This document shows, in pieces, positions 18,828-56,888 of a stretch of 64,000 bases of DNA. The position numbers and the translations under genes are program-made. Origin of the DNA: Grammothele lineata (lineage: Eukaryota; Basidiomycota; Agaricomycetes; Polyporales; Polyporaceae). The stretch is taken from positions 1 to 64,000 of the forward strand of contig NDFF03000067.1 in NCBI GenBank assembly GCA_002150815.3. The letters run 5' to 3'. The stretch's first letter is position 1, and each line of letters begins with the position of its first letter. Below the pieces are notes generated by a model that was given only the letters and a program-made list of their open reading frames with translations, was not told the DNA's origin and did no database searches.

Positions 18828-19720
18828 TACAGGATTCGAATCGCGCAAGGATTGCAAATGAAAAGTTGAAACCCCGCAAGACTTTCTGTAATCGAATGAT
18901 TGAAGGGATGCAAGAATATCAACTCAATCAACTTAATTGAACGCGGGCGGCCGGTTCGTCAAGCATTAAGCGCGGCAGAGGCGCCGGGGCGCGATGCCGA
19001 CGGAGCGCGGACGCAACGCGGGCGGTGAGCGGAAGTCGACGATGTGACCGACGTCCACCGCGATGTCCCTCCCGCTCTCCCGCTCTCCCGCCCTCCCGCC
19101 TTCTTTGCCTTCGTCGTACCTGGCTGCTCGGTTGTGGAATAAGGTCGGGTCACCGACCGGGTCCATACAACGCGCTGGTCCGCCGTGGGCTCGGAGGGCG
19201 TCCTTCGCTCGCCCGCCGCCGACTCCCTGCTAGTTTCCGTCTTTTCCCTCCACACTCGCCTTTCGCTCGCTTCCTGCACGTCTTGTTGCGCACCTCACTC
19301 GTAGACTCCGGTACGTCTGTTTGTTCGCCGGACGGGTCACCGTGCGCTGACGTGCTACGCATGTTCTATCGGTTATCCAGACTGGCCGTCATGCTCTCTG
19401 CAAGTCATCGCCGTAGACGTCGGCTCCCCACCCCATACCTGTCCCCCTTTCCGGTATCGGGTGTCGTTGAACGCGCCCTCGCCTCCCCACTCCCACCGGC
19501 CGCTCTATGGCCACGGCCGCAACCGGACGTCACGAGGAGCTTGTCCCGGGGGTATAGGACGGATGATATCCCAGTCTACACCGTGGATCCGTTCAGCAAT
19601 GTTGGGGTTTCGTGGCCACGAGGTGCGTGTTCAAATTACCTGAATATCGGATGCGGCGGGACTGAGGGCAACGGCAGTTCGACAGACGTTTGCGCTGTCC
19701 CGATGGAGCCCTTCGTTTGG
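18828..19720 (+). repeat. Dispersed repeat copy 2
   Basis: The 5' end (18,828-18,955) is AT-rich and includes GAAAAGTTGAAACCCCGCA; it is nearly identical to copy 4 (30,765-30,890). The core contains a CTCCCG run, GGTCGGGTCACCGACCGGG, and the ATGGCCACGGCC end at about 19,508. An internal segment of about 75 bp present in copies 1, 3-6 is missing near 19,290. The 3' tail from about 19,546 (GGGGGTATAGGACGGATGA) is shared only with copy 3. Confidence 0.85.
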
Positions 19721-24693: not shown

Positions 24694-26589
24694 ATGTCGC
24701 ATCTCGGTCGGCGTGGCACGCTCTATCTCGCCGAAAATGTTGTGCAGGTTGCACCTCCCTCCATTACCAGCTGGACGGTCAGTTCATTTTTCTGCTCTAT
24801 CACTGAATTACTCATACGAATCTAACGTTTATAACTAGGCTATCAGTCCTTCTAGAAGAAGATATTCCCTGTGTGCTCCAGAGGCAGCTGTCAGGTAAGA
24901 GAATTTGCTGTAGCGACCTGAGTATGACATGATACCGGAATAATTAGTACGCCGCCCGCACGAAATCCCCCTCAACCGCCGTATGGTCGGCGCGAACATC
25001 AATGTGCACTAGCCTTGGTCGACGACACGTGCCGGGAAACCGGTAGTGAAGATACGGGGTGCGGGACCGATTTTCGTGAGTGGTCTATCACTCAAGAAAC
25101 ATTTTGTGAATTCATTGCGAACGGCGAGTCAGGTGCGCTGGGTAATAGCGACGAACATCCTATATCACTGGACTTACCGGACCTGGCGACGTCGCATTCT
25201 CTCTACCTACGTTCGACTTCCCACACGACTGCTCTACTTGAGAGTGGTCCAGGCCAGCAAAATGACTTTGAAATAGCTCGGTCGCAGTCTCGTGGTAAGT
25301 CCCTGAACACGGTACATTCAGATTAGGTTTGACATGTCATTAGACAACCACAATGCGCCGTATGGGGGAAGCTCCCGCGTTTCCGTTGTCCACGAGACAC
25401 GGTTCGTTCGTGGACCTCCTGTGCCAGCATCGTTCCCCTCGGGTGCCCAGACTTCATTGTCTGCTTGTGCTGCTGGACCCCCTGGTACCAATGCCGCGAC
25501 GTTGTCGGGCCAGGATACTGAATCAATTCGCGATCACACCTCGATAAGCCTGCCTTTCGTCCACTTCAACACCAATAAGCGACGTGCCGGTGCTACGACG
25601 CACACAATTCGCCATGGCGCACGTTCCAGTCAAGCTACGCTAGCGACTCCAAGCACGTCTTCAAACATGCGTCCGCCGGGAGTCGACGAGCGTCGCCCCG
25701 AGGGTGAAGATTCGGCTCCTGGGACCTCCGATGCACAGAGTGGCATCACAGGATTTGAAGTGGATGAGCGCCTTGGATTTGGAAACGAGGTATGAACGTT
25801 GTCTGCGGCTTGGAAGTGTCGGACTGATCACTTCGGATTGTGCCCCAATCGCGACCTCGTCAGATCCCTCGTGCGTCTATCACAGCTCGTCTGCGAACGC
25901 CTCAACGCTCCATGTCACCTTTATCGCCACTTCCTTCGGAGGTCGAAAGAAGTCCTTCGCCGCCCGCTGTCAGAGGACCAGTCCCACTGATGCAACCCGG
26001 TGAGGCGGGCGTGGCTCAAGATGAGGGTGTGGACGAGGAAAATGACCGGCCACAAGCACGCCGCGGCCAAGCAGGTACACCAACGGTAGTGGCTGCCGAC
26101 TACTTCAACACTCGGGACGACTTGGAGAACGTAGTGGACTGGGAGCAGCTGAGACAGACGAAAGCCATTCGAGGCCTGCCACGGTTTACCGTCTGGTACA
26201 TGACTGCTGGGCCATTTCTGCTGGTCGAACCGCCGGCGGGACTGTCGGGTAATCGGGACGACCTCTATATCCACTATGACCGTCGGTCCGGGCGGTCATG
26301 CATGTGGCTTCTTAACGCAACCGACAAGTGGGTCATCGTCCGAGAAGGGGATGTCCAACCTTCCGACAAAGACCGGTTCCTCAGCATATCGAAGGACGGG
26401 ACACCCGGCTGGGTCACCGAAAAGTCGTGGTCCGCATACCGTAGTCGCAACAAGAGGTCGCGTCGCCTCGACCTGAAGGTAGGAGAAACGGTCATGCGAG
26501 TAGTTAGTTGGCTGACGAAACGCGCAGCATCGATAATTCGATACTTGGACGGGAGACATTGGGACAGGAGCTACAGGAGGGTAACCTAG
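24694..26589 (+). CDS. Unknown protein, 552 aa, five exons (paralog of 32,423-33,564)
   Basis: Exons 24694-24777, 24839-24894, 24948-25294, 25344-25789 and 25864-26589 join in phase to 553 codons including stop; introns are 49-74 nt. The first 310 residues are Ser/Thr/Pro-rich, low-complexity and probably disordered. The C-terminal part (from about DYFNTRDDLENVVDW) is a folded-looking domain with FTVWYMTAGPFLL, RSCMWLLNATDKWV, RFLSIS and GTPGWVTEKSWSAYRS. The same order of blocks occurs in the gene at 32,423-33,564. The last 50 residues are basic. No known family recognised. Repeat copy 3 starts about 200 bp downstream of the stop. Confidence 0.65.
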
Positions 26590-26794: not shown

Positions 26795-27740
26795 AGAAGC
26801 GCCGGAGCGCGATGCCGACGGAGCGCTGGCGGTGAGCGGAAGTCGACGATTCGGATGTGACCGACGTCCACCGCGATGTCCCTCCCGCTCTCCCGCTCTC
26901 CCGCTCTCCCGCTCTCCCACCCTCCCGCCTTCTTTGCCTTCGTCGTACCTGGCTGCTCGGTTGTGGAATAAGGTCGGGTCACCGACCGGGTCCATACAAC
27001 GCGCTGGTCCGCCGTAGGCTCGGAGGGCATCCTTCGCTCGCCCGCCGCCGACTCTCTGCTAGTTTCCGTCTTTTCCCTCCACACTCGCCTTGTGCTTGCT
27101 TCCTGCACGTCTAGTCGTGCACCTCGCTCGTACGCGCCCGCCCGTCGGCACGGGTCCTCAAGCAGGAGCTCTGGAGAGAGACGTGCACTTTACACTCGTA
27201 GACTCCGGTACGTTTATGTTTGCTTGCCGGGCGGGCCACCGTGCGCTGACGGTGCGCTGTGTCGGTGCTACGCATGCTCTGTCGGTCATTTAGACTGGTC
27301 GTCGCGTTTCTCGCAAGTCATCGTCGTGGACGTCTGGCCCCCACCCCACCCCAGTCTCCCTTTCGGTATTGGGTGTCGTTGAACGCGCCCTCCCTTCCCC
27401 ACCCCCGCCGGCCGCTCTATGGCCACGACTGCAACTGGACGCCACGAAGATCTTAGCTAGCTCGGGCATGCCACGCCGCTCGTCGCGCCTTTTCGCCATA
27501 CAACATCTTATGGCTTTCGCGTACGCTCCCGCGCGCGGTATGGTCCGACCTCACGAGTGCGGCCCTCTTCGGTATCACGTCGCATGTCGTCCCGGGGGTA
27601 TAGGACGGATGACACTTGGTCTGCACCGTGGATCCGTTCAGGAATGCTGGGGTTTCGTGGCCACTAGGTGCGTGTTCAAATCACCTTAATCTTGGATGCG
27701 GCGGGACTGAGGGCAATGGGGATTCGACAGACGTTTGCGT
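26795..27740 (+). repeat. Dispersed repeat copy 3
   Basis: Core almost identical to copy 4, with a longer CTCCCG run near 26,882-26,925. It lacks the AT-rich 5' end. The core ends at ATGGCCACGACTGC (27,418), where the short frame MATTATGRHEDLS stops at once. The 3' part continues with CATGCCACGCCGCTCGTCG (matched at about 41,578) and the GGGGGTATAGGACGGATGA tail shared with copy 2. Confidence 0.85.
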
Positions 27741-30764: not shown

Positions 30765-31570
30765 AGACTGATTCGAACCGCGCAAGGTTTTCAACTGAAA
30801 AGTTGAAACCCCGCAAGACTTTCTGTAATCGAATGATTGAAGGGATGCAAGAATATCAACTCAATCAACTTAATTGAACGCGGGCGGCCGGTTCGTCAAG
30901 CATTAAGCGCGGCAGAGGCGCCGGGGCGCGATGCCGACGGAGCGCGGACGCAACGCGGGCGGTGAGCGGAAGTCGACGATGTGACCGACGTCCACCGCGA
31001 TGTCCCTCCCGCTCTCCCGCTCTCCCGCCCTCCCGCCTTCTTTGCCTTCGTCGTACCTGGCTGCTCGGTTGTGGAATAAGGTCGGGTCACCGACCGGGTC
31101 CATACAACGCGCTGGTCCGCCGTAGGCTCGGAGGGCATCCTTCGCTCGCCCGCCGCCGACTCTGCTAGTTTCCGTCTTTTCCCTCCACACTCGCCTTGTG
31201 CTTGCTTCCTGCACGTCTAGTCGTGCACCTCGCTCGTACGCGCCCGCCCGTCGGCACGGGTCCTCAAGCAGGAGCTCTGGAGAGAGACGTGCACTTTACA
31301 CTCGTAGACTCTTGTACGTTTATGTTTGCTCGCCGGGCGGGCCACCGTGCGCTGACGGTACGTTGTGTCGGTGTTACGCATGCTTTGTCGGTCATCTAGA
31401 CTGGTCGTCGCGTTTCTCGCAAGTCATCGTCGTGGACGTCTGGCCACCACCCCACCCCAGTCCCCCTTTCGGTATTGGGTGTCGTTGAACGCGCCCTCCC
31501 CTCCCCTCCCCCATTGGCCGCTCTGTGGGTACAGACGCAATTCGAAGCCGCAAGGATCTCTGTTTCATCC
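30765..31570 (+). repeat. Dispersed repeat copy 4
   Basis: Contains the AT-rich 5' end with the palindrome CAACTGAAAAGTTG and the full core. From 30,790 to about 31,195 it differs from copy 2 at only a handful of positions, pointing to recent duplication or gene conversion. The downstream end reads GTGGGTACAGACGC instead of ATGGCCAC, so the conserved ATG is lost in this copy. Confidence 0.87.
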
Positions 31571-31599: not shown

Positions 31600-32422
31600 T
31601 GGGCGCCCTCCTATATGTTCCATTATTCGCGCTTCTTCCTTTTCGCAACCACGACAACCTTTGCTTAGACAAGGACAGAGACGAGGGCTTCGCGGCTGCC
31701 AGGTGCGTTTCCTCGTCTCCCAGTGTTTTGTCTAGTCTTGCTAAGGTCCGGGTGCGCCGCAAGTCCGCGTGCGACGTTCTAGTGGCTCGCTGCAAGTATG
31801 CGATGGGCACTGCCGGATACTCGGTCTACGTTTGTGGTGCCGGCGCGCGGCTCGACCTCGCGTCTGGTGTTGAAGTAGCTGAAATGCTGCTGGCTTCTGT
31901 GAGGCTTCAGCTATCGTTGACATGTGCACGACGAATCCTCCATGTTCTTGGATCAAATCCCGTTATAGTTTGGCCGCCGGAGGCGCCCTGAAGTAGACAC
32001 GTACGGCTTTTTGCCTCTTGTCCGTTGTTTTCGATACCATGTCTTTCACCGGACTCCGTAGGACATGTCGCGCTGTCGGTGCGTTCCGTAGATGTGCTTC
32101 TTCAAGTGGTCTCTATCTCCGTGGTTGTTCCCCGCCGTGGCGTTGATAAGTGCCGTTGTATCCATAGTCCTTTACGCTACGTGGGGATGGCCTGTATAGT
32201 CTAACCCTGTATATTCCTTACCGCCCTTCGGCTTACACACAAGCACTACTTATAACCTCGCGATGGTGTCGATGGAATATCCGGCCATGTCACACCGCAG
32301 CCATTTGCTTTCTCTAACCTGTAGGGGCCGAGCACTAGCGCTTGCCGGTTATGTTGGCGCGACGCTAGGTCATTGTTTCTATTGAGTGGCGTTATAGCCC
32401 CGTCCCTTTTCACCATTCCACG
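31600..32422 (+). other. Possible upstream exons of the following gene
   Basis: One plus-strand frame (to 31,991) contains RVRRKSACDVLVARC and EVAEMLLASVRLQLSL and could be coding. No phase-consistent link to the gene at 32,423 was found. Confidence 0.2.
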
Positions 32423-33564
32423 ATGTCTTACGCTGCACCCCTCTACTTGTATGAAGACGTTCAGCGCGACGCTTTACCTTACTCAAACGTCGACAACCTC
32501 GAAGGGCTTGCCGTCATCGGACTCCCCCTGGTACTCATCGGAGTGGCGTTAGTGCGCCTCGCATGGACTCGAAAGGCTGAACAAATCGATGTTCCCAAGG
32601 CTATTCCTAAGAAGAGACGTGTTCGGGCATCGCCCATAGGCAAGGTGGTGCCCAAAGATTACTCTTTCTCTTCCTCTGCCGCCGTACGAGCCCTCGAAAC
32701 TGCCCACTTGTCATATATTGCACCGACGCCACCCAGATCAACGGCGGGTGTTCAACCCTTTGCTCTACGAGTGTGGGGGAATCCGAAACCATCTGCGATG
32801 TCTCGGTGGGGATGTATGCTCACAACTCCTTGGCTGTACACTGATATTTGCTTGACAGTGGCACCCAGTCTGTACAGCAGCCAGTCACGCAAGTTGGCGC
32901 ACAGCATGTCGATGGGCTCATTCCTACTCAAGAAAGATCGCCATCAGTTATTCCACATTCAATCCTGGAACGACAGAATGACCAAGGATACCCACCGCCC
33001 AAGCATGAAGCGGGAGGGTCGACGGCGAGATCACATTCTCCAGAATGTGATGACGCTCTGAACATCTCTCCTGTAAGTGCATCAACGTCGATTCTCGAGC
33101 ACCAAACATCGTTTGACCCTACTACCCAGACTTCGCCATTCTATCGACGTATAATATGGTTTAAAGGCAGCAAGCGCAGGGACACCTATTCTGAAGCGAC
33201 ATGCTGGTTCGAATTCACATCTGAAGCCCCGCTGCTCCAACCACCTGCATTCCCAACGAGCATCGAGTTAGCTGCTCGGGACATTTTTCTGAATCGCGCT
33301 CATCACTGTCTCAGGCTCTGGGTTTGGATGGCCGGCGATGTCGATGGCATTTTCCGGTGGCAATCTGTGGACGCCGGGTTCGTTCGAACAGACCGCAGGA
33401 GATTAATCATTAGGGAGACGGAAAGGGTGCCATCGTGGGTTAGTGCCTCAACGTTTGAGGCTAAATACAAGAGCAAAGGCACGTCCTGGCCCGAGGTTAA
33501 TGCGATATCAGATCCACTGATCCCCTTCGATGATCTCACAGTGCACGACATGCAGAAGAATTGA
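32423..33564 (+). CDS. Single-pass membrane protein of unknown function, 362 aa, two exons
   Basis: Exons 32423-32805 and 32859-33564 join in phase across a 53-nt intron. Near the N-terminus a hydrophobic stretch (LAVIGLPLVLIGVALVRLAW, about residues 29-48) is followed by a basic cluster (IPKKRRVR), typical of a membrane anchor with a cytoplasmic basic side. The middle is polar and probably disordered. The C-terminal domain contains CWFEFTSEAPLLQPP, LRLWVWMAG, RRRLIIRE and VPSWVSASTFEAKYKSKG, matching block by block the C-terminus of the gene at 24,694-26,589. It lies downstream of repeat copy 4. Start is the first Met of the frame; upstream exons are possible. No family name known to me. Confidence 0.65.
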
Positions 33565-34389
33565 CTGTGCGACTGCGTGAAGCGAAAGTACTACTGACGT
33601 GGTTCGCGCTGGCGACAGGAGCCCAAAAATGCGTATCTGAGCGACCTGTCGTTACTCTCTCTTCTCTATGACACACCTAGCGTAGATACTGGTCATTGAG
33701 CCCTAGGTAGTTAGAACGTATTCGTAGCGACTTCTGGACACATCACGAGCCGGATGCGTAATATCGGTGTACGCGGGATCTGATGCGTGATGGCGCTAGT
33801 TGATCTTGTGCCTAAATATGATAACAGATTAGTGCGAGGCCAGCTCTGAGTGCAAATCCGATCGACAGCCTTTCCCTAATACCTGCCTTGCCTCCCCTAC
33901 TGTCGTCTTCTTGCAAGCCGGCATACTCCCTGTTCACCAAAACATTCTACGGATAACGGGCGCTTCAAATAGTGGTCACAACAAGTGGCTTGATCCCCAC
34001 TATGCCGCTTTTACAATCGTTGCGGCAGCGAGGGTTGACACGATGGCGCCGACGGAAGGTTTCATTCCAGGAGGCCAGATGCCGGGCGATTTTCAATGCT
34101 TGTGTATGTGCATGGTTGACGCTATGCATACCCGTAATCCTACCCTTCTATGGCTACTGTATCCAAGCCAGCGATCGCGTTCACTTTCAAAATCTGCTTT
34201 GCGTCACTTTCTGCTTCGATGTCCTCTCGATGACTGCGGCCTCCATCGGTGGGTTTCCCTCATTTGCTTCGCCTCATACTGTTAGGCTGATAACGAGTCT
34301 GTTTGAATTTAGCTATTCGCCGTGCGATTGGACGTCGACCTTTATATGCGTTGGGAGGACCTAGGAGGCGGGCTGCTTTCAAGGCGAAT
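33565..34389 (+). other. Possible membrane-protein fragment
   Basis: A plus-strand frame (33,972-34,364) has AIFNACVCAWLTLCIPVIL and further hydrophobic segments, suggesting part of a membrane protein. No exon partner found. It lies just upstream of the transposase gene. Confidence 0.25.
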
Positions 34390-37300
34390 ATGACCATCTT
34401 TGTCTGGGGCGTCGGTAACAAAGCTATACCACTTGGTGCGTTTCATGTTGTACTGACCGTTCCCTGAGTATAACATTACGTCACTGGGTGGCAGCTGTTC
34501 ACGAGCGATGGAAGATCTCCGACATTACATGGTCCCTCCGGCGTCGCCATCTCATACCGAACCTCAAGCGCATTCAACCGATGGTTTACTTCGATTCTTT
34601 TCAACGCCGCCCGCTATCCGAAGAGAACACACTGCGCGATATTGGCGCGGGAGATCTTTCAGTCTTGCAAGTTCGGTATTCTGTCCACGGCGGATCCACG
34701 ACCGGACATAAATCTTGTATGGTATTTCGCTCTGAATCCCCATACGCTTCTAACGAATGATCCACTCAGCGCTATCGGAAGACGAGATAGCAGATGGCAA
34801 AGTGCCTAGAATAAGACGACGTGGGTACTACATTCTGCGTCGGTTCCATTAGGTCTCAGGATCCATAATCCTCTAGCCATCCCCAGCGGTGCCCGCACGG
34901 CTAGGCGTAAGGCCAAGAGCGCTAGGATGAACGAGACGATCAGTGACAGCGACACCGAACTAGACGACAGGTCTGGAGAGATTCCCGCTGCATCATCGCC
35001 GCCATTTCGTCATTCTCCAGGCTCCCAAGGCCCCTCCGATACCCAGACTGCCCATGTTCTGGATGACAATCATGTCTCACCTCCTGAGAACCGACGCTCG
35101 ACCAATCCACCACCCGATTCGAATCAACGCAGTATACCAATCCCTGCCCATGCCGAGCATGCCTCTCCCGATTCTCCACACCCACATCTCCGCGCTGCTG
35201 AACTCCCTTCGAATCTAACTCCCCCCCCAGAACATGATCAAACGAATCGGCCTCAAATCATTCCCGGGGGGGCACCTTTAGATCCGTCAGAGACTATCCG
35301 CGATGATCTCGATTTCCTCTCATCGTACATTCAACACCAGATTCGCACTTATGTTCCGCGAGAAACGTTGATATTCTCGGATCGACCGCCAGAGGATGCG
35401 GAATTTTACATCACATTTATCGAGCATGTCACGGAACCCAATGACGACCCGTACGTCTTAGACTCGAAAGACACCCGGAACGCGGCGTTTCTGGCCCACG
35501 AGGAATGTCTTATCTCCACATTCATGGAGGTCTCCACAATATCCTCATCGGCTCCGTCGCCGCTGCAGTCTCGGTGCGATGAACTATTGAATACGCTTCG
35601 CCAGGAGTGGACACGTATGCAGTTCCATAAACGTCGGGAGTGGCTGCGACAAGCAAAAGGTATTGGGTCAAGCAGGCGTGCGGGAGCCGTATACGTCGAC
35701 TCAGGTGAGTTGGAATACACTTTGTGCAGTTTTGAGGTTGAAGTAGCCTCCCCAAGAACGATACTTTCCAGAAGCTCTAAACTTCGATCCCTCAGTCTTG
35801 GTTCACCACCTGACTGCGCTGGTTCTCCATCTATTCTACAAGCTCTCACGTCGAGCTACTCATGTCCTTCTCGTGGCATTGCGAGTCCTCGTACGCAAAA
35901 CAATGAAACGTGCAAGAGCCAACGATACCGAAACCCAGGAATTACTCAACTATCTTCCAATCGACATCCGGACGATTCTCGGACGCTTCGATCTGGATCC
36001 AGTAGCACGCACTTTCGTCTGCTGCCCTGTGTGCTGCGCCCTATACAGCTCGCCATATCCCGATCACTGTTCTCATAAAGCTACATCCCAGAGCGACCCT
36101 TGCGGCTCTCCCTTGTGGCGAAGTCGGAGTATCCGTGGACGTCGCATGGCATTTCCCATCCGAGTCTATCTTCATCAGGACTTGAAGCACTGGTTAGCTC
36201 GTTTGTTGTCCCGGCGTCACATAGAAGACTGGCTCGATTCAATGCTCAAACGTGCTGCTGCACCCCCACCTGCGATCATGACCGACATTTGGGATGCTCC
36301 TATCTTGCGAGACATTCGGTTCAAGGACGGGAAGCGATTCGTAGATGCCCCCGGGAGCGAGGGTCGACTCGTTTTCGGTCTCGCCGTTGATGGCTTCAAT
36401 CCCTTCCATTCCAAACCAGCAAAGCAGGTAGTATCAGTCACTGGCATCTACGTCTATTGTCTCAACTTACCACCTCATCTTCGCTATCGTCCCGAGAACA
36501 TGCTCCTTGTCGGTGTTGTCCCCGGACCCCACAAGCCCTCCATCGACCAGATCAACCACTTTCTACGACCACTGGTCGAAGATCTTCTCCTCTTTTGGGA
36601 GAAGGGTGTTTACTTTTCTCGCACGGCAAAATATCCAGCGGGGCGTCTTATCAGATGCATCCTTGGGCCCCTTGTTTGCGACCTGCCTGGGGCAAGGCAG
36701 ACTGCTGGGTTTGGCAACTACAACGCTAAATACTTCTGTAGCCTATGCCTCTTGCCGCTTACAGAAATTGATAAGATCGAGAACCCGGATTCCTGGACCA
36801 TGCGCTCATGCGAGAACCATAGGGCAGCCGCCGAAGCATGGAGGGACCAACCCACTCAAGCCGCCCGAAAGGCCGCTTTTGAGACCAACAGCATCCGATG
36901 GTCGGTTCTCCTCGAACTCCCATACTGGGACCCCATCCGCTTTACTGTTATCGATTCAATGCACAATCACTACCTTGGTCTCCTCAAACATCATTGCCGT
37001 GTCCTGTGGGGTATGAATGTAGATGTAGATGACGATGGTGGTGATGCAGACGAGACCCTGACCGGGGCCCACCGTCTACAGCTCTCGCATGCCCTGGACC
37101 GTTTCTTCTTCGGGACAGCTACTGAACTCGAAGGGTTCACGAAAGCAATCCTCCGTGGCGTTTGCGCAGTCTTGAACATCCAGCGCAGCAACCGTTCGAA
37201 GCGACATATCTTGGCCCTTCTCATAGCAGAGGTGAGTAATACTACATTGGTGTTGATATTCTGTCTGAGCTCCGTCAGCGTTCCAAACATGGGATAGTAG

Positions 37301-39320
37301 ATACTCGTGGTCCTCAGAGCCAGGCGCAACCGGCGCTCGTGTCCACCACTACCCCCGCTTCTGTTGGCCAGGCAAAGCGTTCAGACTACCGCGCTCTTGA
37401 GAGGGCTCTTCTATCGGGAAACTCGAAGAATACGATTATGAGCAAATTCAACCGGGATGCTATGCAAGAACTGTGCAAGAACTTGAAGGAGCAGATCAGT
37501 CTAACGCCCGGCGCGGCTTCGAAGGACGGGATGGCAGAGTGTTTGATCGCATGGGTACATGTTGTTCTATGTGCGATGTTTGGCCTTTAACTCAGGTTGG
37601 AGTATTTCAGAGAAACAGACAGCCGTGTCAGGCATCGCCATCGCGAGAACAGCAACCGACATCTCATAGCGCTTCCTCGGAAATCTCTCCGTCGTTACAA
37701 GCCCGGGTATGCTTATGATGATTTTTCATTGGTGGGCTCAGCTGACTTCAGCCCTCAGATCGATCAGTTGCGTTCGGTACGACCTTCATACGAACCCTCT
37801 CATACGCTCCATTAACATAGCACTCTTCGCGTTGATGCAGGCTAATGCTGCTGATGTTGAATCGCACGGATCGATGGTAACGGATCGCGACACAATCCTT
37901 GGTAAGAAGACTCTCAAGCACATTCACCAGCGTATGCCGGACACCGTACTCCCATCCTGGGTCGGAACGGTGCCTACTGATGTCGGGACGAAGACCCGGG
38001 GTAAACTCAGCGCAGACCAGTGGCACATCCTGTGTGTCATATATCTTCCAGTCATACTCATACCTCTATGGCACAAGATGGAGTCCCGAAAAGCGATTCT
38101 TGACAACTATATGGACCTTGTTACCGAAGTTATGGTCGGCGGCTTGCTTGAGATGTCGTCTGAAGCTATCGAGATCTATAAGACCACATCCCTTCGGTAT
38201 CTGCAGCAAGCTAAAGCGCTATATCCGCACATGAGGGTCACCCCTAACCAGCATAATTCGCTTCATATCCCGTTTTTCCTTCGTCTATATGGACCCCTCC
38301 ATTCCATCCGAACGTTCTTCGCGGAACGCATGAATTACCTCCTACAGCGCCAGAACACGAATGCGAAGTTCGGTACGTAGTACTGATGTCACTCGGTCCA
38401 TTAAGTCTAACATAGAATTGTAGGTGAACTGGAAGCAACGTTCTTCAAGAACAGTTGTCGGGCTTCCAATCTCCATGTTCTCCTAGAGGACGAACGCATT
38501 CGTCAAGACGTCGAGGAACTCGTGGATGCCGTCGAGGAGATCACGATGGAGGATCGCAGAGGCACAAGATTGCGCGAGTCCGTCTCCTTAGGGCCAGGTC
38601 CGCGAAAGCAGGGGACGCAGATGAACAAGCCAATCACGCTTTCAGACGAGTGCTTCGCCGCGTTTCTCGTCTTTTTGAACCGTCAGAGATGTCCACCGGT
38701 CTTTTTTGACGTCCGCCAGTTGCAACGCTCTCCTGGGTCTCGGCAACTCAACCCACGTGCATTTCACTGCTCCCGCTTGTTCCATGGCGGCATCACTTTT
38801 CGCAGCCATGGGGATTCTTCGAAAGATTGTAACGTGATGTACCGATGTCCTGTTACCTCCTCACTACGGGCCGGCTGTATTCAACAAATCTTCGCTTATG
38901 ATATACGCGATGTCCAGATCACCGGAGACAGCAGGAAGACGTATCTCTATGTCGCCCCACTGGAGGAACTGTCTCAGCGGGACGAGGAACGGGATCCGTT
39001 TCGCAAGTACGCCTACGTTGGGGGAAGGCTATTCTACGACAAGTACTTGCCAGCCGTTATTATCACACCCGACGACATCGTCTCACATTTCGCCCGGACA
39101 CCCATGACGCTTCAAAACATCTCTACGCCGTGCATCCATGCCCTTCCTTTGGACAAGGTGAGCCAACTGAACAAGCCAAAGACCACGCCGATATTGAGTT
39201 TGAGGACAGAGTGTTCGATTGATAAGCCGACTTCCGGACCCAGAAGATACGAATGCGAGCAACGATGATCAAGATGCAGCGGAGGGCGATGACGACATGC
39301 TGAATCTTGGGGACATCTAG
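34390..39320 (+). mobile_element. Plavaka-type (CACTA superfamily) transposase gene with N-terminal ubiquitin-like domain
   Basis: Exons 34390-34435, 34495-34716, 34770-34820, 34877-35704 and 35772-37235 are in phase. Residues 1-83 start MTIFVWGVGNKAIPL and contain NTLRDIGAGDLSVLQVRYSV, ending in HGG: the order of a ubiquitin fold. A polar linker follows. The transposase core contains CCPVCCALY, IMTDIWDAPILRD, LAVDGFNPF, LNLPPHLRYRPENM, VGVVPGPHKPS, CDLPGAR, WSVLLELPYWDP and DSMHNHYLGLL, typical of Plavaka/Tnp2-like transposases of mushrooms, which cut and paste DNA. Later parts include GKLSADQWHI, NQHNSLHIPFFL, AERMNYLLQRQNTNAKFG and an acidic end (DDDMLNLGDI). Exons between 37,590 and 37,860 and the last junction are unsure. 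No stop breaks the called exons, so it may be functional. Terminal inverted repeats were not located. Confidence 0.85.
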
Positions 39321-40439: not shown

Positions 40440-41100
40440 GTAGGCGACGCCGCGATAATGGCCATAGAGCAGCCGGTGGGGGTGGGGAGACGAGGACGCG
40501 TTCAACGACACCCAATACCGAAAGGAGGACAAGGGTGGGAGGCCGACATCCACGACGATAGCGTGCAGAGACCGCGACGACCGACCTAGATGACCGATAG
40601 AACATGCATAGCACCGACACAACACACCGTCAGCGCACGGTGTCCCGTCTGGCGAGCAAACGTGGACGTACCGGAGTCTCGGTCTACACGTCTCTCTCCC
40701 CTTGCTCCTGCTTGAGGAACTGTGCCGACAGATGGACGCGTACGAGTGGGGCGCGTGACGAGACGTGCAGGAAGCAAGCACAAGGCGAGGATTGGAACTT
40801 GGCGGCGGGCGAGCGAAGGACGCCCTCCGAGCCTACGGCGGACCAGCGCGTTGTATGGACCCGGTCGGTGACCCGACCTTGTTCCACGATCGAGCAGCCA
40901 GGTACGACGAATGCAAGGAGAGCGGGAGGGCGCGAGGGCGGGAAGACATGGCGGTGGACGTCGGTCACATCGTCGACTTCCGCCTCGCGCCCCGGCGCCT
41001 CTGCTGCGCTGGTTTCATTACATAAGTTGATTGAGTTGAAAGTCTTGTGGGATTTCAATATTTCAGTTGAAAAGCCTGCGCTTTTAGAATCTTGCAATTG
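40440..41100 (-). repeat. Dispersed repeat copy 5 (minus orientation)
   Basis: The reverse complement matches the core and, at 41,020-41,100, the AT-rich 5' end (GGCTTTTCAACTGAAAT, CAAGACTTTC, CAACTCAATCAACTT). It is more diverged from copies 2-4 than those are from each other and groups with copy 6 (both share a deletion next to AAGTTCCAATCCTCGC). The ATGGCCATTATCGC end at about 40,452 points left towards the gene at 40,311. Confidence 0.83.
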
Positions 41101-47769: not shown

Positions 47770-48650
47770 GGTGATTGAAGCCACGCAAGATGATCAACCG
47801 AATTGTTAAACCTTCATTAACTGGATTAATATGCAAAGGATCTTAATTATGGGAAAGAGGCGCCGAAGCGCGGTGCCGACGCAGCGCGGGCGGTGAGCGG
47901 AAGTCGACGATGTGACGACGTCTATCGTGATGTCCCTCCCGCCCTTCCGCCCTCCTACCTTTCTTCCTTCCCGCCCTCGTTGCCCTCGTCGTACCTGGCT
48001 GCTTGGTCGTGGAACAAGGTCGGGTCACCGACCGGGTCCATACAACGCGCTGGTCCGCCGTAGGCTCGGAGGGCGTCCTTCGCTCGCCCGCCGCCAAGTT
48101 CCAATCCTCGCCTTGTGCTTGCTTCCTGCACGTCTCGTCACGCGCCCCACTCGTACGCGTCCATCTGTCGGCACAGTTCCTCAAGCAAGAGCAGGGAGAA
48201 AGAGACGTGCAGACTGAGACTCCGGTACGTCCATGTTTGCTCGCCAGACGGGACACCGTGCGCTGACGGTGTGTTGTGTCGGTGCTATGCATGTTCTATC
48301 GGTTATCTAGGTCGGTCGTCGCGGTCTCTGCACGCTATCGTCGTGGATGTCGGCCTCCCACCCTTGTCCCCCTTTCGGTATTGGGTGTCGTTGAACGCGC
48401 CCTCGCCTCCCCACCTCCGGACGTAATCCGACGCGGTGAAGACTGTTTGCCAGCGGCTGTGAAGGGCTCGGCTCAACGATTTCTTTCGTCCTTGTCGACG
48501 TCTTCGCGTAAAACGTGTACGATCTTTCGGGCGTTTTATGGCGACGTGTCCCGACTCGGAGTTTGACCTCGAGGGGGTGCGTCCCAGTCCCGTCTCCTCT
48601 CCTTGGTATAACTATCTGACGCGCGCGTAGGTACAGAAGATGTCCCCACG
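47770..48650 (+). repeat. Dispersed repeat copy 6
   Basis: Has a diverged AT-rich 5' end (47,770-47,850), the core, and a 3' extension (48,420-48,650) with GTCGACGTCTTCGCG, CCCGACTCGGA and CGTCTCCTCTCCTTGG that aligns with the 306-540 stretch of copy 1. It shares the AAGTTCCAATCCTCGC deletion with copy 5. The ATGGCCAC end is deleted. Confidence 0.82.
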
Positions 48651-53909: not shown

Positions 53910-56177
53910 CCATGTATCACTTCGTTTCATGACCCAGCGCCCCCGGTGTTGAAGATCGTGTTCCCCGCGGCGTACGTGGCGCACGGCGCGTCCCCCTACG
54001 CCACCGTATTCGTCTCCTCAGTGCTCCTAGGAACGTTGCGAGGCCCAGCTGAATTACGCCTGAGTGCGCACAGCAGCATCCTGTCGGTCCACGGCCACGG
54101 ATGCTGCAATGCATGGAAGTACTACGCCACCGTTCCCCGTATTATGTCAGCTCCGAGCAACTCTAATGGCCCAGAACGCGAGGACCCACCTTCGCTTGCT
54201 GATCCTCCGGCGAAGCCATGGCCAAATCCGGACCAGTGCCCGGCCAGCCACGCCGGCCGCGCGTGTCTATTGAACGCTATGTAGGCCCGCGAAGCCCCCA
54301 TACGGAAGCGCCCCCTGCCGCACCGCGCCCCAGACCTAGCAGAACACACTTCAGAACACGCACACAGCCAGCCAGAGAGCTGAACCCGCACCGTCCGCAC
54401 CGCACGTGCCAAAAATACCGTGCCCGCTGCGCCCCCCACAGGCCTCAGAATCGAACCGAACATATCGAGCGACGGGGCAGATCGTCGCCGACGACCACAT
54501 TTGGCGCGCGCTTCCGCGAGGGGTGCACAGGTGATGATGCGGTCGACCGACCGTCGTGCCCTGCCTGCATTGCGGTGGGCGGGCGTCGGCCGAGGCCCGG
54601 TGCGGTCTTGGGCGGTGCGTGCATTCAATGGGCCTGACGGGGAGGCGGGGCGAGTGCTCGCGGGCGCGGATGGGTATGGGGATGCGAACGATGTGTCGAT
54701 GGAGATCGTCATGGGGAGGACAACGGCGATACAGTACCGAACAGGAACGCACTCGGAGACAGCGCGATCAGCAGTAAGCTCGCATAGATCTGGGGTTCTA
54801 ATGGGCATCATCATCATCAAGCGTGCAGGTCAACGACACATTGACCTGCGAACCTGCGGACAGGAATCGGCGAACGCGCCCGGGATCGGAGGTGCGGGGG
54901 CGGCGGCTCGGATCACTTGCGCAGTGCGCCGCCGCCGCATTGAACGCCCAAAGAACTGCGAAAGCAAGCGAACCTAAGCCGGACGAGACAGGCTTGCCTT
55001 CTGCGCGCGAGTGCTCCCGCGCGAGACCGAGACCGAAGCGACCGGGGAAAGAAGTTCGAGGGGAACGGCGCGGAGGGCGCGGCGAGCCGCAGTGACCGAC
55101 TCTGACTAGTACTGGGTGCACTGGCGGGACCGCACGCAGCGCTGGCGGGCGGGCGCAGCGCGTCATACCAGTCGGAGGGGCGTGCGACACGTCAGAGAAG
55201 CAGACTTGGAAGGTAGCTGGAGGCAGCTGATCTTGGGCGATAAGGCGAGGGGACGAGCCCGTTCGGGGATGCGGCGCGCGAGGCGCACCTCCGATTCCAT
55301 AGGAGAACTTTTGCGTGACATACAGTACTGCTATTTGGAGCCGCGGCGCAGAGCGCGTCCTAGGATTTGCTTGGATTCGCAGGGTGTTTCAAACGAGCTC
55401 GAGTGTCTGACGACGCGGGCGAAGAGGGGCTTGGCGGGGTGTTGGGCAAGACAACAAGAGGGCATTTAAGCAATCCGCAGACTCTACGCAGGCCCAAGGT
55501 GGTAAGTTGGGTCGCCTTCCTTCTGGATAGACGAATGAGAGCCGCGTGGACGATGAGAGACAAGCGAGCACCGCACAGCGTACGAGGCCGCCCCCTTGGT
55601 GGCGCCGGGCGCGCTGGCGGGCGGGCGGGTTCGCCGACGTCGGCCCCGTCGCTTAACGGTGTCGGCGCCGGGGCTGTGACTACTCTCAAGAGGGCGATGC
55701 CACGAGTTGCCTTTTTCTTTGACGCCACGACATTATTCACGCTCTCGCGCACTGGCGCGGTCATGCGCGTCCTAGGATTGTGGTCGAAGAAGCACTCGCG
55801 GGCTTCGAAACATTCTGTGCCTCGAGCCCGAGTCATGTTGCGTGAGCTCCTCCCCCGGTTGACGACCCAAGAAGGAAGGGAGCGGGCTCGGGCGCGTGCA
55901 CAGCTCGGCCGCTGCCCGTGCTGCTATGGAGGCCGTGGCGATTCCCGTCACTTGTTCGCCCCCGCTGCGCGTCTGATCACTTCCCTGACCATGATACTTA
56001 AACACAACGTCTTCACGACCCCTTCACAGCAACAAACCATCCGTCCCCCGCTCTCCGCTGCACCCACAACCACAACCAACCTCGAGAGCACCAGCCACCG
56101 CGACCACGACGACGTTCCCCGTGCAGCCCGTCTACTACTACGTCTACTACCCCCTCAACCCGCCGACGCCGACCACG
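53910..56177. other. GC-rich stretch, no supported gene
   Basis: Many long frames on both strands result from high GC. None shows a domain or intron model. The last 200 bp are C-rich and pyrimidine-biased, as in a 5' leader of the following gene. Confidence 0.4.
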
Positions 56178-56888
56178 ATGCCCGGCAAGCACGTCCACTT
56201 CGCCGACGTCCCCTCGCCCACCTTCTCCGACTCTACCCTCACTGGCTCGCCCGGCCCGGTGACACCACCCCAGCCCTTCTACGCCCTCGCACCAGGGGCC
56301 AAGGCGGCGGCGTACGCCCACCCACACTCGCCCGCCCCCGCCGTGCACATCCACCCCGTCCTCGCGCGCACCGTCGCGTACGGCACGCCCCTCTTCTGGG
56401 ACCTCGGTGAGCCCGCAGAGTCCGCGCGTCCCCAGCTCCCCGGCGCGCCCCCACGCCTCACCGACGCCCTCGTCTGCGAGGCCGCAACCAACCCCCCGCT
56501 CCCCGAAATCGCACTCATCTGCGACTACCTCCCCTGGACCATCGCCGTGCGCCCCACCCCCGGGGCCATCTGGTCCGGGGCTTCCTACGTCACCGTCGGC
56601 GACGTCCTGCACGCGCTCTACCGCGCCCTCCGCCTAGGGGTGACCGACCCCGAGCTCGGCGTGCTCGAGCCCGCGCAGCGCGACCGCGTGCGCGACGCGT
56701 TCGTCCGGCGGTACCGCCGCGCCACGGACCCCGCCATGCGCGCCATGGAGAAGGCCAAGTCCGTCAAGCGCGTCGACTTCCTCCGCGAGCACCGTTCCTT
56801 CCTCGGGCTCGCGCCCGTACCGGGGGGTCTCCCCGCCAAGGGTCTGGCGCCGGGCATGGTTTGGGCGCTGCAGGTCGGGCGCGCGTGA
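56178..56888 (+). CDS. DUF6699 family protein, 236 aa
   Basis: One exon starting MPGKHVHFADVPSPTFSD, a typical opening for this basidiomycete family. The core contains TPLFWDLGE, LPGAPPRLTD, LICDYLPWTIAV, YVTVGDVLHALYRAL and the end VKRVDFLREHRSFLGLAPV, in the usual order of DUF6699 (beta strands around a PW motif, a helix after VTVxDVL). The function of the family is unknown. Codon usage is extremely C-ending, as expected for a well-expressed fungal gene. The frame is open upstream to a possible splice acceptor (CCCGTGCAG at 56,117-56,125), so a 5' exon is possible. A decayed copy of its 3' end lies at about 61,995-62,120. Confidence 0.88.
   Translation: MPGKHVHFADVPSPTFSDSTLTGSPGPVTPPQPFYALAPGAKAAAYAHPHSPAPAVHIHPVLARTVAYGTPLFWDLGEPAESARPQLPGAPPRLTDALVCEAATNPPLPEIALICDYLPWTIAVRPTPGAIWSGASYVTVGDVLHALYRALRLGVTDPELGVLEPAQRDRVRDAFVRRYRRATDPAMRAMEKAKSVKRVDFLREHRSFLGLAPVPGGLPAKGLAPGMVWALQVGRA

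Follow-up and report, generated by a model that had tools for sequence, protein, structure and literature searches.

A predicted in-frame fusion of a ubiquitin-like domain ending in Gly-Gly to a tnp2/EnSpm-type transposase in Grammothele lineata

Plavaka elements were reportedly first described in a paper of 2014. Plavaka and EnSpm transposases are recognisably similar, and in Kojima 2025 (PMC12730594) Plavaka stands close to EnSpm; the main text of that paper nowhere uses the word ubiquitin. The transposase considered here is encoded in a 64,000-nucleotide stretch of Grammothele lineata DNA (the window, on contig C58 of a 41.8-Mb genome). It resembles the tnp2/EnSpm (CACTA) transposases of Agaricomycetes in that its core domain passes the Pfam cut-off for Transposase_21/tnp2 (PF02992; 54.2 bits, cut-off 28.6), and it also has C(2)C and H..H motifs like those reported for the CMCT group (PMC12730594). 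It differs from those transposases in that its protein carries a ubiquitin-like domain (Ubl), which none of 34 relatives has, and in that no terminal repeats were found here. The likeness to Plavaka (PF18759), the class to which a first-pass annotation of the window had assigned the transposase, is a weak match to the later part of the core which, at 19.1 bits, lies below the curated cut-off of 26.3; among the 69 Plavaka matches listed in the genome, none is on the window's contig.

Ubiquitin-type domains that end in Gly-Gly stand ahead of another protein in the ubiquitin-eS31, ubiquitin-eL40 and FUBI-S30 precursors, and the present locus shares this arrangement; here, however, the domain is joined to a transposase and preceded by two hydrophobic segments, and the Arg-Leu-Arg ahead of the Gly-Gly is mostly lost. 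Ulp1-like proteases occur in some DNA transposons. Helitrons carry OTU and VTD deubiquitinase domains (PMC9741609). The likeness to both kinds of carrier is that a mobile element taps the ubiquitin system, but in those cases the element has a protease, whereas here a modifier-like domain is fused to the transposase. The F-box fusions and immune-domain fusions derived from transposable elements in PMC12062965 and PMC8195603 are other fusions than Ubl-transposase, and our searches of an open-access library, subscription papers being outside its scope, turned up no account of a Ubl fused to a DNA transposase.

The predicted gene occupies 34002-39268 of the forward strand and has 10 exons, which encode 1585 amino acids without an internal stop; its nine introns are all GT-AG and 47-67 nt long. 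Exon 1 (34002..34248) encodes a protein start of MPLLQSLRQRG..., i.e. the basic MPLLQSLRQRGLTRWRRRK, and two hydrophobic segments whose best 19-mers have Kyte-Doolittle means of 2.23 and 1.92, the second segment extending 2 residues into exon 2. A gene start at 34230 was dropped for 34002 after comparison with two paralogues, on contigs C214 and C249, whose proteins start MRDI(L/V)RRQR and contain a counterpart of this exon. Exon 2 (34313..34435), with a phase-1 intron on either side, encodes a basic linker followed by MTIFVWGVGNKAIPL, i.e. strands 1-2 of the Ubl, which starts at the ATG at 34390. This MTIF had been taken for the N-terminus of the protein, but exon 2 opens at 34313, exon 34002-34248 lies upstream of it, and both have counterparts in the two paralogues; the Ubl is therefore not N-terminal, as a conserved exon with two hydrophobic segments precedes it.

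The Ubl as a whole (MTIF...HGG, 34390..34694) is split by a 59-nt intron (34436-34494), after which exon 3 (34495..34716), containing NTLRDIGAGDLSVLQVRYSVHGG, supplies the remainder of the domain. Exon 3 encodes AVHERWKISDITWSLRRRHLIPNLKRIQPMVYFDSFQRRPLSEENTLRDIGAGDLSVLQVRYSVHGG, with the Gly-Gly codons at 34689-34694, and seven further complete codons, so that it does not end at YSVHGG as first annotated but runs 22 nt past the Gly-Gly, to 34716. Exon 4 (34770..34820) is a short linker, SEDEIADGK, symmetric in phase (1-1), with counterparts in C214, C249 and a further locus, C204, although alternative chains are possible. The first-pass annotation had three further junctions running in phase into the transposase; the phase is indeed kept, but in the present model the junctions are 34716/34770 and 34820/34877, both phase 1. 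Exon 5 (34877..35704) encodes a low-complexity and basic linker and the beginning of the transposase part, and exon 6 (35772..37231) the transposase core matched by PF02992, with the motifs TDIWDAP, VDGFNPF, CSLC and DSMHNHYLG. The rest of the transposase is encoded by exons 7 (37279..37554) and 8 (37603..37776), both taken from the splice model only, by exon 9 (37841..38372), which contains a DUF4218-like region scoring 13.3 bits, below the cut-off of 27, and by exon 10 (38424..39268), with which the predicted protein ends.

At least one in-frame GT-AG chain across the 232 nt between the Gly-Gly and the transposase exon is permitted by 38 of 400 shuffles, and the real stretch permits six. An in-frame chain at the window locus alone is moderate evidence for a fusion; since six chains are possible there, the window alone does not uniquely fix linker exon 4, and the case for a fusion therefore depends on comparisons among copies. 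A genome search with the transposase core found C249 (58%) and C214 (57%) as the closest copies, then C149, C94 and C186 (42-46%), the rest being weaker or shorter. The Ubl part, used as a query, matched four loci, i.e. the window, C214, C249 and C204, and the Ubls of two other species recovered the identical four loci and none extra. At all four the Ubl immediately precedes a transposase of the same orientation, and the linker exon is symmetric 1-1 in each. The window, C214 and C249 have introns at four identical places, all phase 1, and in C214 and C249 the module, linker and transposase core follow one another without a stop codon. At the DNA level, 34313-35704 matched no copy in the genome beyond the window's own. 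The core of C249 (L033) reads DAFNPF where the window and C214 have DGFNPF.

The Ubls of C214 and C249 are 47-48% identical to that of the window. Codon-position counts show that the Ubl is under coding constraint: between the window and these two copies third positions are identical at 0.23-0.26, which is near random, against 0.68-0.70 for second positions; for the window and C214 these counts give 49% identical residues against 26% identical third positions, and 28 of the 40 residues identical between the two are encoded by different codons. Exon 1 is less alike, with 21-25% identical residues and second positions at 0.47-0.49. As a splice model, the fusion has the support of this conservation and of two annotated proteins of other species (P0035 and P0036, described below).

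The module could also be a separate small protein, made from its own transcript or by alternative splicing, with the transposase starting at its own Met, e.g. at MNETISD (34927). An early Met is indeed present in the transposase exon of the window and of C214, the fusion is found in none of the 34 annotated tnp2 relatives and the three closest of their models start inside the transposase; however, the transposase exon of C249 has no Met in about its first 80 residues, phase-1 introns link the parts at four loci and two annotated proteins from other species are fused. In addition, of 7996 candidates scored (0.55-1.75x module length), none matched the module as a free-standing protein at E up to 10. 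We therefore consider two separate products unlikely. Judged from the sequences, the best explanation is that one gene encodes one protein, predicted to comprise two hydrophobic segments, a Ubl with a terminal Gly-Gly, a linker and lastly a tnp2/EnSpm-type transposase. The Ubl-like sequence from 34390 on, in frame with a transposase, is thus present as first annotated, the profiles described below finding ubiquitin and the paralogues sharing the module; of the Ubl-transposase polyprotein proposed then, the Ubl homology and the in-frame fusion model stand, but the N-terminal position and the Plavaka class do not.

The Ubl is not absent from all related elements: it occurs in C214, C249, C204, P0035 and P0036. 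The 34 annotated tnp2 relatives, at 27-54% identity and with the closest from Ganoderma and Lentinus, all lack it; in 19 the match is preceded by 80 residues or more, and several with a long N-terminal part have a cysteine-rich motif instead of the Ubl. The three copies with a Ubl are monophyletic in the tnp2 tree (99/96), with P0001-P0003 (Ganoderma, Lentinus) as their sister group. The models of P0001-P0003 start inside the transposase and are therefore uninformative on the presence of the Ubl, and many of the annotated relatives appear Ubl-less because their gene models are short. Annotation of the closest relatives may have begun within the transposase partly because the 5' exons are many and small. 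Of the 6 tnp2 copies in the genome whose matches are long (at least 364 residues), 3 have the module, as does 1 of the 2 copies of the C204 type; the module was not detected in the 3.6-5.4 kb upstream of the less similar copies C149, C94 and C186. Viral contigs contained no relatives. As the copies in the genome are single and diverged, these genes may be immobile or host-adopted.

Exact and near-exact inverted-repeat scans gave no convincing terminal repeats for C214, C249 or C204. An inverted pair in the window (30.8-31.5 kb and 40.5-41.1 kb) is doubtful as termini: it belongs to a contig-local repeat, and the two copies on either side of the gene are not among the most similar pairs of that repeat. 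This repeat, of about 0.5 kb, occurs in both directions at 530-1064, 19029-19510, 26836-27422, 30966-31528, 40462-40983 and 47897-48418, and 6 of the 7 genome copies listed are on the window's contig. The C214 gene is flanked by 99%-identical 250-bp direct repeats (L032:236-485 and L032:8925-9174); they look like terminal repeats, but the repeat is also found in different surroundings in C245 and C10, with two kinds of flank. Among the neighbouring genes of the window, 55995-56885 (forward strand) encodes a DUF6699 protein (98.8 bits, cut-off 24.1). Two others on the forward strand, 32400-33561 and 25828-26586, are by eye likely members of an orphan gene family and have no Pfam match; the first contains LRLWVWMAGDVDGIFRWQSVDAGFVRTDRRRLIIRETERVPSWV and has four weaker relatives elsewhere in the genome, and a motif like its own was seen twice, by eye, in Trametes sanguinea P0024, upstream of a tnp2 transposase.

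The module also occurs with a second type of transposase. The order at C204 is a basic start, two hydrophobic segments, a linker, a Ubl ending PGGA and a short 1-1 exon, and this module shares its reading frame with a C2H2-like finger and with a transposase for which no Pfam family exceeded its cut-off in the three pieces scanned. C212, the other copy of this type in the genome, has stops, and the module was not detected in it. The Ubl was found in 2 of 16 relatives of the C204-type transposase, several of the other 14 models starting inside the transposase. Both are annotated as single proteins: P0035 (Cubamyces lactineus C8Q73DRAFT_680493, 1595 aa) has the hydrophobic pair, a Ubl at 147-230 (E 1e-23) and GGS, and P0036 (Mycena sp. 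CBHHK59/15, 1161 aa) has a Ubl at 33-114 (E 2.5e-21) and GGA, these E-values coming from a profile whose C204 row had approximated letters at one junction. The Mycena model is without the hydrophobic pair, and its annotated start may be wrong; overall the pair stands ahead of the Ubl in 5 of the 6 cases, its second segment being weak (1.31) in C204.

P0035 and P0036 are 48% identical to each other over 1167 columns. When the full window protein was compared with them by BLASTP, the Ubl was the sole significant match (39-40% over 83 residues; E 3e-12 and 3e-13, respectively), and nothing outside it passed E 0.01. A profile comparison of the two transposase families aligned 125 columns near the DUF4218-like region (probability 87.7, E 3.4e-6); to judge by these alignments, the two families are related at profile level only. 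As a second transposase family has it, the module, i.e. hydrophobic exon, Ubl and linker, behaves as an N-terminal unit that fits different transposases. The Ubl tree separates the domains according to the transposase family to which they belong (98/97), consistent with either a single old transfer or a common origin; the tree does not give a direction.

We compared six Ubls (window, C214, C249, C204, P0035 and P0036) with known structures and families. The six-member profile matched ubiquitin 1otr_B in the PDB at E 1.3e-6, profile positions 1-82 aligning with ubiquitin 1-76, and the 3-, 4- and 6-member profiles all ranked ubiquitin first over its full length, whereas the reversed profile, used as a control, gave no ubiquitin match. 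The domain is, on this profile evidence, ubiquitin-like and related to ubiquitin over its whole length. That the resemblance is due to chance or convergence might be argued from the 82 residues of the window Ubl alone, which found no ubiquitin in the PDB (the best E, 0.33, belonged to other proteins), from the 121-aa window piece, which matched no Pfam family, and from the profile of the three tnp2-type Ubls, which gave monoubiquitin at E 0.0026 only, the lower E-values coming from multi-ubiquitin chains. The agreement of the three profiles and the failure of the reversed one make chance or convergence highly improbable, as does the fact that Pfam ubiquitin or Rad60-SLD models match individual members, albeit below the curated cut-off for the window (Rad60-SLD, 12.3 bits, cut-off 23.8) and for P0035 (PF00240, 11.6 bits, cut-off 25.4).

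Further comparisons bear on the same relation. The hydrophobic core positions of ubiquitin are hydrophobic at 15 of 15 in five Ubls and at 14 of 15 in C204, and two ungapped blocks of the window Ubl have 19 identities with ubiquitin over 65 positions, a count reached by none of 20000 shuffles. The entry for ribosomal protein S30, 7oyc_e2, matched weakly with the single sequence (E 0.96) and at E 0.00028 with the three-member profile. The predicted fold of P0035 was counted in favour of a Ubl; an AlphaFold model of the Mycena fragment has the elements in the right order but overlays poorly.

Invariant columns number 10 of 87 in the six-Ubl alignment, two of which are the terminal Gly-Gly, and the residue that follows is Ser or Ala in all six. 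Other features of ubiquitin are lost: Val70 is Arg in all six Ubls, R72-L73-R74 is retained in C214 only (C249 retains R72-L73), and of six lysine positions examined 6, 27, 29, 33 and 63 have no lysine in any Ubl, Lys11 being retained in two. The C-terminal Gly-Gly of a processed ubiquitin-type modifier is therefore present, but its R72-L73-R74 tail (outside C214) and I44 patch are not. The part most needed by a cleaving enzyme has thus been kept, whereas the parts for chain building and standard binding have not; with R72-L73-R74 in C214 only, an ordinary ubiquitin protease may fail to recognise most copies.

This pattern can be read in two ways. Processing at the Gly-Gly would free the transposase from its hydrophobic N-terminus, in the manner of the ubiquitin-ribosomal-protein and FUBI-S30 precursors, which are cut after Gly-Gly; from the relation to ubiquitin, the strictness of the Gly-Gly and the fusion model, we put this at a little under an even chance. 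What counts against it is that the Gly-Gly could instead be a hinge. The Ubl would then stay attached as an adaptor, with the Gly-Gly as a flexible hinge before the linker, and a host factor bound to it (candidates being the proteasome, a Cdc48-type segregase or a SUMO- or ubiquitin-binding repair or chromatin protein) would set the stability or place of the transposase. The loss of residues for conjugation and chain building is in favour of such an adaptor, and many larger proteins carry a fused Ubl domain that is not cleaved. However, a mere hinge gives no obvious cause for an invariant Gly-Gly followed by Ala or Ser in Ubls that are 28-48% identical to that of the window, and the hydrophobic exon is left unexplained. 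An adaptor is therefore a real but tentative possibility, well short of an even chance.

If the Gly-Gly is processed, the N-terminus would keep the precursor chain at a membrane, or inactive in some other way; a protease that recognises the Ubl would then cut after the Gly-Gly, the Ubl would remain on the N-terminal piece and the transposase would be freed for the nucleus. As transposases act in the nucleus, a membrane anchor would be odd unless it were removed. Kyte-Doolittle peaks of the transposase parts themselves reach 1.64-1.73, and such peaks are no proof of membrane insertion. The more specific proposal of a membrane-tethered latent transposase is plausible but doubtful; in it, a shuffled module of two membrane segments and a Ubl would keep the enzyme away from the nucleus until it is cut behind the Gly-Gly by a host Ubl protease, and the module would have moved between two transposase families as mostly phase-1 exons. 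With such a cut by a host protease, the host ubiquitin-type machinery would gate transposition.

Here the transposase itself incorporates the modifier-like partner, in two transposase families and three fungal genomes, and the strict Gly-Gly of that partner makes control of transposition by host Ubl processing directly and cheaply testable. These fusions hint that such mobile elements may exploit the ubiquitin-type machinery of the host cell to regulate the enzyme that they encode.
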